In this document: positions 30,376-34,992 of the stretch, in pieces
Position numbering within the stretch: position 1 is the first letter of the stretch
Layout: each line of letters opens with the position of its first letter
Source: Clostridiales bacterium
Lineage (GTDB): Bacteria; Bacillota; Clostridia; Oscillospirales; CAG-272
Reading direction: 5' to 3'
DNA: 64,000 bases
Assembly (NCBI GenBank): GCA_016288155.1
Contig: JAEEYP010000052.1
Coordinates: 1 to 64,000 of the forward strand
Translations under genes and position numbers: made by a program
The notes under the pieces: model-generated
The model's database searches: none
Seen by the model: only the letters and a program-made list of their open reading frames with translations
What the model was told of the DNA's origin: nothing

Positions 30376-30405
30376 TTGACTATCCGTTTCCGGATGCGTT
30401 ATAAT
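30376..30405 (+). promoter_or_regulatory. Promoter of the GrpB-PPase-NUDIX gene
   Basis: TTGACT, 18 bases, TATAAT. A transcript from here starts almost at the track's ATG 30414, which supports using the later start at 30459 with its good ribosome-binding site. Confidence 0.75.
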
Positions 30406-30458
30406 TATGATATATGAGACGGCTGTCGGAGCCGGTCGGGAGAGGAGGTGCGCGGGAT

Positions 30459-31733
30459 ATGCCGAAGGAAGTGCGCCTGTGCCGCCATACGGCGGTATGG
30501 GAGAGCGCGGCGGCGGCGGCGCTGCGGTCGCTTGCCGCATGGCTCGGAGACGATCTGGAAGCGTCGCGTCATATCGGTTCGACGGCGATCCGCGGGATCC
30601 TCGCCGTTCCGGTCATCGATATCGCGCTCGGACTGCGCGAGGAATGCGACGTGGAAGAAGTCCTGCGCAAGCTGGCGGGCTGCGGCTACCGCCGGATCCC
30701 GACGGACGGAACCGGCTGCATCCGCATGCAGCGCAGCCAGCACAGCCGTCCGTACGACGCCGTCTGCCTCTGGATCACGCGCGCGCGGAGCCCCGCCTAC
30801 GGCGAGCTCGTCGCTTTTCGGGAATATCTGAACAACCACGTTTTTGCGGCGAACGAGTACGAGCAGCTGAAGAAGCGGCTCGCCGCGGAGCACCGCACGG
30901 ATCCGGCGGCGTATGCCGCCGGAAAGGATGCGTTCATCCGCGGCATCCTCCGCCTCAGCTTCACGGATCAGTTCCTCGGCCGCCATCTGACGGTCGTCGT
31001 CGATCATCCGTACGGGAGCGCGCTCGAAGAAGATCCGCGGAAGCGGTACGAACTGAACTGCGGATATCTGCCGGGGATCCTCTCGCCGGACGGCCGGGAG
31101 CCGGAGGTGTATATCTACGGCGTGCACAAGTCCGTGCGCCGTTTCACCGGGACGGTGATCGCGGCTATCCACCGCCGCAACGGCACGCGGGACGCGCTCG
31201 TCGCGGCTCCGAGCGGCGTCGTCGCCTACGAGCCGCAGATCGGGGAAGCGGTCCGCTTCCTTGAGCACAAATACGACACGGGCGTCGTCTGCATTTATGA
31301 AAAGTCGTGCGGCGCGATCCTGTACCGGATCGGCGACGGCGGCGTGATCGAATATCTGGTGCTGTATCAGCACCGCTCCGGCACCTGGAGCATCCCGAAG
31401 GGGCATATCGCCGCGGGCGAGACGGAGCGCGATACGGCGCTGCGTGAGATCCGCGAGGAGACGGGGCTCAGCGTGTCGCTGATCGACGGCTTCCGGCGGG
31501 AACTTTCGTATACCGTTTCCGCCAAGGCGTCGAAGAACGTCGTCGTGTTTCTGGCGGAGGCGAAGGGAGAACTTTCCCTCGGACGGAACGAGATCTCCGA
31601 CTGCGTGTGGGCGGAGAAGGCGGCGGCGATCCGACGCCTCGGCGGACGGAGCATCGGACGGATCATCGAAGCGGCGGAGGCGTTCCTTCGCCGGAACGGA
31701 GCGGCTCGCGCAGATACGGAACGTACGCCTTGA
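30459..31733 (+). CDS. Triple fusion: GrpB/UPF0157 nucleotidyltransferase-like + pyrophosphatase-like + NUDIX hydrolase
   Basis: 424 residues from ATG 30459 (GAGGAGGT upstream). Residues 1-165 are GrpB/UPF0157-like, a nucleotidyltransferase fold with HIGSTAIRGILAVPVIDIAL and the closing YAAGKDAFIRGI. Residues about 172-275 resemble a small family I inorganic pyrophosphatase (VVVDHPYGS, CGYLPGILSPDG, FTGTVIAAIHR). Its acidic metal signature is altered to DGREPE, so catalysis is doubtful. Residues about 284-415 are a NUDIX hydrolase with a complete Nudix box starting GHIAAGETERD (residue 315) through REIREETGL. Together they suggest nucleotide or CoA-derivative handling linked to NTP transfer and pyrophosphate. 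The substrate is unknown. Its 3' end overlaps mutY by 71 bases, tail to tail. Confidence 0.85.
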   Translation: MPKEVRLCRHTAVWESAAAAALRSLAAWLGDDLEASRHIGSTAIRGILAVPVIDIALGLREECDVEEVLRKLAGCGYRRIPTDGTGCIRMQRSQHSRPYDAVCLWITRARSPAYGELVAFREYLNNHVFAANEYEQLKKRLAAEHRTDPAAYAAGKDAFIRGILRLSFTDQFLGRHLTVVVDHPYGSALEEDPRKRYELNCGYLPGILSPDGREPEVYIYGVHKSVRRFTGTVIAAIHRRNGTRDALVAAPSGVVAYEPQIGEAVRFLEHKYDTGVVCIYEKSCGAILYRIGDGGVIEYLVLYQHRSGTWSIPKGHIAAGETERDTALREIREETGLSVSLIDGFRRELSYTVSAKASKNVVVFLAEAKGELSLGRNEISDCVWAEKAAAIRRLGGRSIGRIIEAAEAFLRRNGAARADTERTP

Positions 31734-32742
31734 AGGCGCGGGGGATCGCATAGCCGCCGAGGGCGTCGGGCGGCGCCCATTCCATGCCTTGCGGGAGGGG
31801 GACGGCGCGCGAAGCGGCGGCGAGGTAGCCGTTCAGCTTCCACTCGATGTGCGTGAACAGATGCCGCGCGGGCGGCAGGGCTCCCGCGACGGACGTTTCC
31901 GCGTCCGGGAGCAGGGCGGCAAGGCGGACGGCCGCTTCACGCGCGTCGAGCGCCTCCATCCACGTCAGCGGCTGCCAGAGCCCCGCGAGCAGACCGTGCT
32001 CCGGACGCTTCTGCATGAGGAAGCCCGCCGGGGAGCGGACGATCAGCACCGTCGCGCATTCCGACCGACGTGCTTTTTTTTCTTTTCTGACGGGGAGCGA
32101 AGCCGCCGACCCGGCGGCGAACGCCATACAGAGTCCGGCGAGAGGACAGGCGGCGCAGTGCGGCTCGCCCGGAACGCATACGAGCGCGCCAAGTTCCATC
32201 AGCGCCTGATTGAAGTCGCCGGGGCGTTCGGGCGGCTGGTGCTCCATGACCCGCTCGGTGAAGCGGCGCTTCACCGCGGCCTGCGTGCAGTCGGAACGGT
32301 CGTTGTACAGCCGGGAGAAGATGCGGAGAACGTTGCCGTCCACCGCCGGGCAGGGGATGCCGAAGCTGATGGAGGCGACGGCGCCCGCCGTGTACTCTCC
32401 GATGCCGGGCAGCGCGCGCAGCGCCTCATAGCTCGGCGGCAGGCTGCCGCCGTATTCTTCGACGATCCGGATCGCGGCGCGCCGGAGATTCTCCGCGCGG
32501 CTGTAGTATCCGAGCCCTTCCCACACCCGGCGGAGCCGGCCGGGATCCGCGGCGGCGAGCGCCTCCGGCGTGGGGAACGCCTCCATGAAGCGCGCGTAAT
32601 ACGGCAGGACGGCGTTCATGCGCGTCTGCTGGAGCATGATCTCGCTGATCCACACGTGATAGGGCGTCGGATCCTCCCGGAAGGGAAGGATGCGGCGGTT
32701 TTTCTCAAACCACGCGAGGAGCACCGGAGCGATCCCGGACAT
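31663..32742 (-). CDS. mutY: A/G-specific adenine glycosylase MutY
   Basis: Removes adenine mispaired with 8-oxoguanine. 359 residues from ATG 32742 (GGAGG five bases upstream). Motifs: EIMLQQTR with the catalytic Glu, ALPGIGEYTAGA helix-hairpin-helix, PAVDGNVLRIFSR with the catalytic Asp, and the [4Fe-4S] pattern C-x6-C-x2-C-x5-C in CVPGEPHCAACPLAGLC. The C-terminal NUDIX-like domain reads the oxoG strand. The last 23 codons overlap the convergent NUDIX-fusion gene with no terminator between. Confidence 0.95.
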   Translation of the reverse strand: MSGIAPVLLAWFEKNRRILPFREDPTPYHVWISEIMLQQTRMNAVLPYYARFMEAFPTPEALAAADPGRLRRVWEGLGYYSRAENLRRAAIRIVEEYGGSLPPSYEALRALPGIGEYTAGAVASISFGIPCPAVDGNVLRIFSRLYNDRSDCTQAAVKRRFTERVMEHQPPERPGDFNQALMELGALVCVPGEPHCAACPLAGLCMAFAAGSAASLPVRKEKKARRSECATVLIVRSPAGFLMQKRPEHGLLAGLWQPLTWMEALDAREAAVRLAALLPDAETSVAGALPPARHLFTHIEWKLNGYLAAASRAVPLPQGMEWAPPDALGGYAIPRAFKAYVPYLREPLRSGEGTPPPLR

Positions 32743-32796
32743 AACTGCCTCCTGCGGTACGGACCGTGATTTGCCGACCGAAAATCGACCGTATAC

Positions 32797-32825
32797 ATTA
32801 TAACACAGATCCGCACGTTTTGCAA
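32797..32825 (-). promoter_or_regulatory. Promoter of mutY
   Basis: Minus strand: TTGCAA, 17 bases, TATAAT with TGT in the extended position. Confidence 0.8.
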
Positions 32826-32858
32826 TCCGCGACGACGGACGGAAATTGCGCCCTTCTC

Positions 32859-32887
32859 TTGACAATCGCACCGTTTCATGCTATAGT
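32859..32887 (+). promoter_or_regulatory. Promoter of the metallophosphoesterase pair
   Basis: TTGACA, 17 bases, TATAGT with TGC before the -10, divergent from the mutY promoter 33 bases away. The leader is about 65 bases. Confidence 0.85.
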
Positions 32888-32960: not shown

Positions 32961-33950
32961 ATGCTTTCTCTTTCCAAAACGCCGGGCAGGGATTTTACCG
33001 TTCTGAATCTCACGGATCCCCAGCTGGGGACGGACGAATGGCAGCCGGGGCATCCGAACGGCGAGATCCTGATCGGTACCGTCCGGGAACTCGTCGGCCG
33101 CGTGCGCCCGGATCTCATCACCGTCAGCGGGGATCTCTCCTGGGCAGGTCACGACGCGGCGTACGACGCGCTGGCCGATCTTCTCGATTCGTTTTCCGTG
33201 CCGTGGGCGCCGGTCTGGGGCAATCACGACAATCAGGGCGGCCCGGAAAACGTCGAGAGCGTGGTGACGCGGTATCTGCGGCATCCGCTCTGCCTGTACG
33301 AGCGCGGCCCGCGGGAACTGGGCAGCGGCAACTACGTCATCCGGATCGAGGAGGACGGGCGGCCGGTGACGGCGCTCGTAATGATGGATTCGCACGACCG
33401 GGATCCTTTCACCGACGCGTCGGGGAAGGAAACGCTCGTCTGGGCGAGGCTCATCCCGGAGCAGATCTCCTGGTACCGCGAGCAGATCCGCGCGCTTGAG
33501 GCGGACGGCTGCCGCGACAGCGCGATGATCCTCCACATCCCGATCTATGCGTACCGGACGGCGTTCGCCGCCGCGTTCCGGGACGGGCTCGATCCGAAGA
33601 GCGTGTCCGCCGCGCAGAGCGCCGACGGCTCCGTCTGGAACGAGGGATACCGCGATTCCTTCGGCGTGCTGTGGGAGGAGATATGCAGCTTTCCCGGAGA
33701 GGATCACGTATTCGACGCGATCCGTGCGCTCGGCTCGACGAAATACGTCCTCGCCGGGCACGATCACGTCAACAATACCGTGATCCGTTATCACGGCGTG
33801 CATCTTGTGTACAGCCTGAAAACGGGTCCCGGCTGCTATTGGGATCCGCGGCTGAACGGCGGTACGGCGCTGCGGATCACCTCGGAGGGGATCGCGGACG
33901 TGCGGCACGAGTACGTCGATCCGTCGCCGTGGATGCCGGACAAGTCCTGA
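32961..33950 (+). CDS. Calcineurin-like metallophosphoesterase (tandem copy 1)
   Basis: 329 residues. Metallophosphoesterase motifs in order: LNLTDPQLG (D-x-x metal ligand), LITVSGDLSWAG (GD), VWGNHDNQGG (GNHD), MDSHDRD, ILHIPIYAYR and LAGHDHVNN (GHxH-type). These make a dinuclear metal site for phosphomonoester or diester cleavage. No signal peptide. A closely similar paralogue follows 52 bases downstream. The substrate is unknown; related proteins are often grouped with purple-acid-like phosphatases. Confidence 0.85.
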   Translation: MLSLSKTPGRDFTVLNLTDPQLGTDEWQPGHPNGEILIGTVRELVGRVRPDLITVSGDLSWAGHDAAYDALADLLDSFSVPWAPVWGNHDNQGGPENVESVVTRYLRHPLCLYERGPRELGSGNYVIRIEEDGRPVTALVMMDSHDRDPFTDASGKETLVWARLIPEQISWYREQIRALEADGCRDSAMILHIPIYAYRTAFAAAFRDGLDPKSVSAAQSADGSVWNEGYRDSFGVLWEEICSFPGEDHVFDAIRALGSTKYVLAGHDHVNNTVIRYHGVHLVYSLKTGPGCYWDPRLNGGTALRITSEGIADVRHEYVDPSPWMPDKS

Positions 33951-34002
33951 CGGCCGGACGGTCGAAAACATAAATTCAACAACATTGATAAGCGGAGGCA
34001 GT

Positions 34003-34992
34003 ATGTTCACACTCAAAAAGACGCCGGGCAGAGATTTTCAGATCCTGAATCTGTCCGACCCGCAGCTCGAAGGCAAGGACTGGAAGGCGGACGGAGCGAA
34101 GCGGCATATCCTCGAGGGGACGGTCCGCACGCTGATGGAGCGCGTGCGCCCGGATCTGATCACGATCAGCGGCGACGTCGCCGCGCCGGGGGATTTTGAC
34201 GGCTACGAGTATCTGGCGGCGTTCCTCGACGGCTTCGGCGTGCCGTGGTCGCCGGTCTGGGGCAATCACGACAACGAGAAGGGACCGGAGACGATCCGGC
34301 AGGTCGCCGAGCTTTGCATGCGCCATCCGCACTGCCTGTATGAGAGCGGTCCCGAGGCGCTCGGCGACGGCAACTACGTGATCCGCATCGAGGAAGAGGG
34401 CAAAGCCGTGTCCGCCGTCGTTCTGATGGATACGCACGACCGGATGCCGTACGTGACGCCGGAAGGCGAAACGCGCAGAGAATGGGCGAAGCTCATCCCG
34501 GAGCAGATCGCCTGGTACCGCGAACAGATCCTCGCGCTGAACGCCGAGGGCTGCCCCTCCTCGATCCTCGTCGTGCATATCCCGATCAACGCGTACCGCG
34601 CGGCGTTCGAGGAAGCGCTCGTGCCGGGCGTCGACTGCTCGAAGATCTCGATCGAGGAGAGCGCCCGCGGCGTCGGCTGGAAGCCGGAATACGCCGCCGT
34701 ATCGTTCGGCGTCCTCCGCGAGGGCTTCAGCATCTATCCGGAGGACGAGGGCGCCTTTGACGCGATCCGCGGGCTCGGCTCGACGAAGTACGTCATCGCC
34801 GGACACAACCACATGAACAACGCCGTGACGCGCCGGGACGGCGTGACGCTCGCCTATGGGCTCAAGACCGGGATCGGCAGCTACTGGGCGCCCGGCATGA
34901 ACGGCGGGACCGTTCTGACGGTCTCCTCGGACGGGGCGATCCGGCTGCGTCACGAATACGTCGATTCGTCGCCGTGGAACGGGGAGGGCTGA
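34003..34992 (+). CDS. Calcineurin-like metallophosphoesterase (tandem copy 2)
   Basis: 329 residues from ATG 34003, preceded by GCGGAGG; the track's TTG at 33985 is not needed. It repeats the architecture of copy 1 nearly motif for motif (LNLSDPQLEG, LITISGDVAAPG, VWGNHDNEKG, MDTHDRM, VVHIPINAYR, IAGHNHMNN). Both begin with KTPGRDF, so this is a tandem duplication. GHNH replaces the GHDH of copy 1, within normal variation. The gene reaches to 37 bases before rarA with no visible terminator. Confidence 0.85.
   Translation: MFTLKKTPGRDFQILNLSDPQLEGKDWKADGAKRHILEGTVRTLMERVRPDLITISGDVAAPGDFDGYEYLAAFLDGFGVPWSPVWGNHDNEKGPETIRQVAELCMRHPHCLYESGPEALGDGNYVIRIEEEGKAVSAVVLMDTHDRMPYVTPEGETRREWAKLIPEQIAWYREQILALNAEGCPSSILVVHIPINAYRAAFEEALVPGVDCSKISIEESARGVGWKPEYAAVSFGVLREGFSIYPEDEGAFDAIRGLGSTKYVIAGHNHMNNAVTRRDGVTLAYGLKTGIGSYWAPGMNGGTVLTVSSDGAIRLRHEYVDSSPWNGEG

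Follow-up and report, generated by a model that had tools for sequence, protein, structure and literature searches.

GrpB (UPF0157) proteins form a widespread family for which, to our knowledge, no reaction is known. Our literature search found one experimental study of UPF0157, in which the domain served as a folding aid for the mycobacterial CoaE (M. tuberculosis) and the other tested roles were ruled out. The architectures given there are GrpB alone and fusions with CoaE, an acetyltransferase and a dCMP deaminase, and include neither a pyrophosphatase nor a NUDIX domain (PMC2765170). Nucleotidyltransferase activity was reported for no GrpB that the search found. Iyer et al. (2017) described short domains of the type I InPase kind that lack the beta hairpin, mainly from phage polyvalent proteins (PMC5512222). 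Relatives of these domains were fused to or located near NUDIX and GNAT domains and occurred in a TmrB (tunicamycin resistance) neighbourhood, and nucleotide-like substrates or the clearing of pyrophosphate were proposed; GrpB is unmentioned in that paper (PMC5512222). The search found no paper combining GrpB, nucleotidyltransferase and NUDIX, and no link between GrpB and a pyrophosphatase. The initial annotation of the locus presented here, made from the DNA letters, knew its architecture as no described enzyme; this held for the GrpB links and failed in part for the NUDIX and GNAT links, which were published in 2017 (PMC5512222). Overall, the combination is real and conserved, apparently undescribed, and made of known domains.

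The window, which is the whole 64,000-nt stretch of contig JAEEYP010000052.1 analysed here, carries a GrpB–short pyrophosphatase–NUDIX fusion gene at 30459..31733 on the + strand. It is a single open frame of 424 codons with no interruption, encoding 424 aa. Whole-length homologues (L002, L003, L005 and L031) share 63-66% identity, and each of the five genus members sampled carries the architecture (5/5). The open frame and these homologies bear out the reading of one 424-residue chain joining three domains. Upstream, a sigma-70-like promoter (TTGACT-18-TATAAT, 11/12 matches) was located at 30376..30405 (+) by consensus scan and direct reading; the scan found one such site against 0.3 expected, which alone is no evidence for a function. 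A ribosome-binding-site-like sequence, AGAGGAGGTG, was read directly at 30441..30450 (+), 8 nt 5' of the ATG at 30459. The last 71 bp of the fusion gene (31663-31733) overlap the 3' end of a mutY-like gene that runs towards it (31663-32871, - strand), and two tandem paralogous metallophosphoesterase-like genes lie nearby (32961-33950 and 33985-34992, both +). A 448-aa antisense ORF across the fusion gene was regarded as a side effect of the G+C content of 0.68.

The GrpB/UPF0157 domain occupies residues 5-164 (30471..30950, +) and matched PF04229 at an E value of 2.1e-29, scoring 103.2 bits against a gathering cut-off of 25.5. An NCBIfam search of the fusion protein gave sub-cut-off matches only. 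Standalone members conserve HxGST, KPxxD and HxH-type motifs. In an alignment with standalone and fused GrpB proteins, the window domain retained HIGST and PVID. All five congeners have V where the lysine precedes the proline of KP, and the window copy has CLW in place of the HxH found in other GrpB proteins. The GrpB site of the window protein thus appears incomplete, and the domain may be inactive.

The NUDIX domain was identified at residues 281-411 (31299..31691, +), and PDB and Foldseek matches place it in the Ap4A-hydrolase type. PF00293 matched residues 296-390 at 6.6e-15 (55.7 bits, cut-off 21.1). The Nudix box GHIAAGETERDTALREIREETGL at residues 315-337 (31401..31469, +) fits the pattern GX5EX7REUXEEXG, so that the intact NUDIX domain proposed at first was confirmed by both the profile and the motif. 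Among the NUDIX-bearing family members, 45 of 52 have the strict box and the other seven keep the RE and EE residues; all 52 keep the box if a change of REU to RET or of the last G is allowed. The best PDB sequence match was the human Ap4A hydrolase NUDT2 (1.6e-12). A full-length model of the fusion, built from a nine-sequence alignment, had a pLDDT of 80.7 and a pTM of 0.60, and its domain placement is not trustworthy. Ap4A hydrolases were the top Foldseek matches of this model, with TM of target values of 0.77-0.89. By sequence and predicted fold, the domain looks like an Ap4A hydrolase, and this resemblance narrows the list of candidate substrates.

Between these two domains, a Pfam search of the window protein found nothing, and the PF00719 cut-off was not reached. 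The initial annotation was right about all three domains, and Pfam found GrpB and NUDIX as it expected; the pyrophosphatase call stands through relatives, since Pfam detects no such domain in this copy and reports PF00719 in its homologues. The stretch concerned, residues 169-280 (30963..31298, +), was assigned by homology via congeners and standalone relatives. In congeners and distant relatives, the equivalent stretch reads ...IDRPxGSxHPxHP...YPINYGY...DGEELDVY...NDVEDKLVAAP...FQEQY. Homologous middle domains in L006, L008, L016, L021, L060 and L017 pass the PF00719 cut-off by themselves, as does that of congener G004 when its neighbours in the frame are included. A family profile of 15 sequences matched soluble pyrophosphatases in the PDB at 1.5e-6. 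The AlphaFold model of L094, an intact standalone relative, reached a pLDDT of 95, and inorganic pyrophosphatases were its exclusive Foldseek hits among the 50 PDB matches listed. Its matches to family I pyrophosphatases had a probability of 1.00 and TM values of 0.6-0.7 of the query, and the core fold is shared. The model runs from a strand at 6-13 through a loop to a strand at 30-38, predicting that the beta hairpin between the first and second core strands is missing. Because homologues pass PF00719, the profile matches PDB pyrophosphatases and the model of an intact relative does the same, the middle domain is, judged by homology and modelled fold, a short family-I-pyrophosphatase-like domain. 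It has about 110 aa and is without the N-terminal strands of the full-length enzyme. The strands bearing E20/K29/E31 and the residue K142 (E. coli numbering), which we take to be canonical catalytic elements, have no counterpart in it. The intact short domain is a putative pyrophosphate hydrolase.

In the window copy this domain is degenerate. The altered metal-binding loop, DGREPEVY at 31089..31112 (+), corresponds to DGEELDAY or DGENLDAY in the congeners. The altered DGREPE signature had been noticed at first reading; it is indeed present in this region and private to the window genome, and the four congeners keep DGE(E/N)xDAY. Further changes accompany it, giving R183H, Y201C, E213R, D216E, D242G, E244R and K246A over the middle domain. 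R43, Y55, D65, D70, D97/D102 and K104 (E. coli numbering) presumably make up the metal and phosphate site of family I pyrophosphatases; at the main positions of this site the window copy has H, C, D, E, G and A, and the site is intact in the other four congeners. The four congeners agree at 72 middle-domain columns, and the window departs from them at 18 of these. Such window-unique changes number 6/62 in GrpB and 3/90 in NUDIX (Fisher test of the middle-domain changes, p = 0.025 against GrpB and 7e-5 against NUDIX). Leave-one-out counts for the middle domain of the other four species were 1-4 of 55-58. The pyrophosphatase part of the window copy therefore evolves faster than the remaining protein. 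Its M pN/pS was 0.36-0.41, with synonymous sites near saturation, so dN/dS is uninformative in absolute terms. The genus thus had an intact site, which the window lineage has lost or relaxed. Since the four congeners and several distant triple fusions retain the site, the altered motif does not belong to the architecture as such. These residues suggest that the pyrophosphatase domain of the window copy is most likely dead. The suggestion that this part has turned into a structural element or sensor gains support from the seven lost residues and the faster evolution.

The wider family showed where such losses occur. Among the sampled loci, the short pyrophosphatase was alone in 43, with NUDIX in 38, with GrpB in 13, with both GrpB and NUDIX in 14 and with other partners in 13. 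These other partners include an AadA-like nucleotidyltransferase (L017), a HAD phosphatase (L064), a methyltransferase (L068), an azoreductase-like flavoprotein domain (L026), a P-loop protein (L018), two further NUDIX domains (L079) and TrmK-GNAT (L086). A first scan of the genome contigs, with a single middle-domain query, had returned three loci only. Outside the order the domain was rare: at E<1e-20, a sample of 399 genomes from the phylum had it in 3 of those not belonging to the order. The state of the site was scored by the core residues R14/Y33/D43/D48 (profile numbering). All four were intact in 42/43 standalone proteins, the exception being cut by a contig end, and in 13/13 GrpB–pyrophosphatase and 13/13 other fusions. 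The same residues were intact in only 17/38 pyrophosphatase–NUDIX proteins and 7/14 triple fusions. The degenerate-domain profile came solely from NUDIX fusions, and we therefore restricted a recount to members found by the intact-domain profile. This gave 16 lost versus 24 intact with NUDIX, and 0 lost versus 68 intact without it; a p-value for the pattern is nominal because related sequences are not independent. On the NUDIX tree, itself weakly resolved, the site underwent six or more changes of state. Thus, the short-pyrophosphatase site degrades only where NUDIX is attached and is intact alone or with GrpB. This confinement makes the family a usable case of domain decay within a fusion.

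GrpB and short pyrophosphatases were found together repeatedly. A pyrophosphatase of the DGEExDVY type is fused to GrpB in 13 proteins. In L226:744-1625, GrpB is fused to a short pyrophosphatase of the MDGxGIDVW type, near PF18823 (L225 is a partial copy), and this is a second joining, independent of that in the window. Several plasmids of Priestia megaterium (Bacilli) carry a gene row of GrpB, GNAT and a 113-aa inorganic diphosphatase that passes PF00719 (L207:3977-5351). In G321 (L130:999-1791) the short pyrophosphatase and NUDIX lie in different frames, as after a frameshift, and are closely followed by a GrpB gene, and on a viral contig a NUDIX gene overlaps a GrpB gene (L112:1976-3060). 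AadA-like nucleotidyltransferases are the kind of enzyme that releases PPi, and an AadA-like aminoglycoside nucleotidyltransferase is fused with an intact short pyrophosphatase in L017:694-1839. The recurrence of the GrpB linkage suggests that GrpB may release pyrophosphate. Nucleotide transfer by GrpB would account for it, since a nucleotidyltransferase that releases pyrophosphate would explain why a pyrophosphatase is joined to it. The joining, seen in two subfamilies, in one operon of another class and in the triple fusion, makes pyrophosphate release by GrpB a cheap and testable idea. The GrpB–pyrophosphatase fusions and neighbours in other genomes also lend indirect support to the initial annotation's idea that the three domains process one metabolite in turn, which is conjectural for the window protein, whose GrpB lacks conserved residues.

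Taken together, the window protein is best explained as a cytoplasmic NUDIX enzyme of the Ap4A-hydrolase type with two N-terminal accessory domains that are degenerate in this species, and we put the probability of this explanation as a whole at about 0.5. In the wider family, GrpB would act as a nucleotidyltransferase-like module and release pyrophosphate in its reaction. The adjoining short pyrophosphatase would clear the pyrophosphate and draw the GrpB reaction forward. The C-terminal NUDIX domain would then cleave a nucleotidyl or dinucleoside-polyphosphate product or by-product, all of these substrates being putative. In the window genome, with its lost pyrophosphatase site and incomplete GrpB site, the chain most likely acts as a NUDIX hydrolase. 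As the pyrophosphatase is most likely dead and GrpB doubtful, the Ap4A-hydrolase-like NUDIX probably does the work, and the N-terminal part may be structural or ligand-binding. A separate family II pyrophosphatase may do the housekeeping; a DHHA2 protein of this type is encoded elsewhere in the genome (G000:C113:36971-37276, L227, in a 449-aa frame), and the draft window genome gave no match to PF00719 or H+-PPase. Against this explanation stand the one UPF0157 experiment found, which made GrpB a folding aid of CoaE (PMC2765170), the canonical catalytic elements missing from the short domain, and the methyltransferase, azoreductase-like flavoprotein and HAD phosphatase partners, which release no pyrophosphate.

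The same experiment favours a second explanation, in which NUDIX alone matters, and GrpB and the pyrophosphatase-like domain serve as aids to folding or dimerisation and are decaying relics (PMC2765170). The repeated loss of pyrophosphatase residues in NUDIX-bearing members, with the state changes on the NUDIX tree, speaks for it. Moreover, L060 begins with what reads like a remnant of GrpB, lacking HIGST and a Pfam GrpB match. However, frame and length are maintained, the pN/pS given above (near saturation at synonymous sites) argues against simple relics, and many members keep their N-terminal domains intact. We consider this explanation doubtful.

The short pyrophosphatase might otherwise assist enzymes acting on nucleotide-like toxins or drugs by modification or cleavage, so that the fusion protects the cell as a detoxification or resistance module. 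The partners are typical of drug-modifying enzymes (the AadA-like L017, the P-loop kinase L018, the methyltransferase L068, the GNAT domains of L217 and L086, and NUDIX), and the TmrB neighbourhood and the nucleotide-like substrates proposed by Iyer et al. 2017 point the same way (PMC5512222). The gene is nevertheless fixed beside recG in the genus, unlike a mobile resistance gene, and the PADLOC match is weak and at the level of NUDIX only. The resistance explanation is therefore unlikely in our view. For the weak, NUDIX-level PADLOC match, a defence system was also rejected.

Slightly less likely still is the proposal that GrpB is a genuine nucleotidyltransferase and that the intact triple fusions are self-contained write–drain–erase enzymes. 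GrpB would put a nucleotide on an acceptor, the mini-pyrophosphatase would drain the pyrophosphate, and NUDIX would remove or trim the nucleotide.

An artefact of assembly or frame that fuses separate genes is hardly credible as the origin of the chain: the window genome is a fragmented draft of 116 contigs and the relative G321 shows a frameshift between pyrophosphatase and NUDIX, but the five genus members are uninterrupted, their neighbour recG is conserved and the architecture recurs in distant families. The initial annotation had raised a frame error itself; such an error or a chimera was excluded because of the genus-wide conservation and the conserved recG, which divergently adjoins the fusion gene in the window and three congeners (the contig of the fourth ends nearby).

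The census of the architecture that the initial annotation had proposed extended beyond the genus: a full-length profile search covered 394 genomes from the order and recovered the architecture in about 10, spread over four families. The profile spans the protein in G000, G013 and G017 of the window's own family and in G040, G063, G082, G044, G154, G211 and G188 of other families of the order; the GrpB part is weak in G044 and G154. The NUDIX-domain tree resolved the genus clade. Deeper down, support is weak at many forks and several of the branches are long, so that the tree allows for different numbers of triple-fusion origins. No plasmid record covered 80% of the fusion protein. Viral scans yielded standalone short pyrophosphatases (L094-L098), polyvalent-type phage proteins and the NUDIX–GrpB gene pair of L112, with no triple fusion. 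On these two results, a prophage or mobile origin was rejected.

Comparison with the known systems places the fusion as follows. Its wider value lies in the relatives that tie GrpB to pyrophosphate removal, the window copy being a degenerate example. The GrpB domains of the mycobacterial CoaE and GNAT fusions are alike in that a PF04229 domain serves as a fusion partner, and differ in that the architectures given lack pyrophosphatase and NUDIX (PMC2765170). Soluble family I pyrophosphatases of the E. coli Ppa type (PF00719) share the core fold and motifs with the short domain. They have about 170 aa and N-terminal strands, whereas the short domain has neither this length nor these strands, many of its members fall below the cut-off or lack a Pfam score, and the window copy is degenerate. 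The short InPases of Iyer et al. (PF18823, PF00719) share the short core, the DRP, YP(I/L)(N/D)YGY and D-G-E/D-x-x-D motifs and the linkage to NUDIX and GNAT; the window copy differs in its missing catalytic residues, and the GrpB link is absent from their paper (PMC5512222). The asymmetrical Ap4A hydrolases compared here carry no GrpB or pyrophosphatase domain, and the corresponding activity of the fusion is predicted only. Those of the NUDT2/CT771 type (PDB 3u53, 4ijx, 1ktg and 4mpo) are the best sequence and structure matches of its NUDIX domain, with which they share the GF(R/K)REL(S/N)Y segment and the Nudix box.
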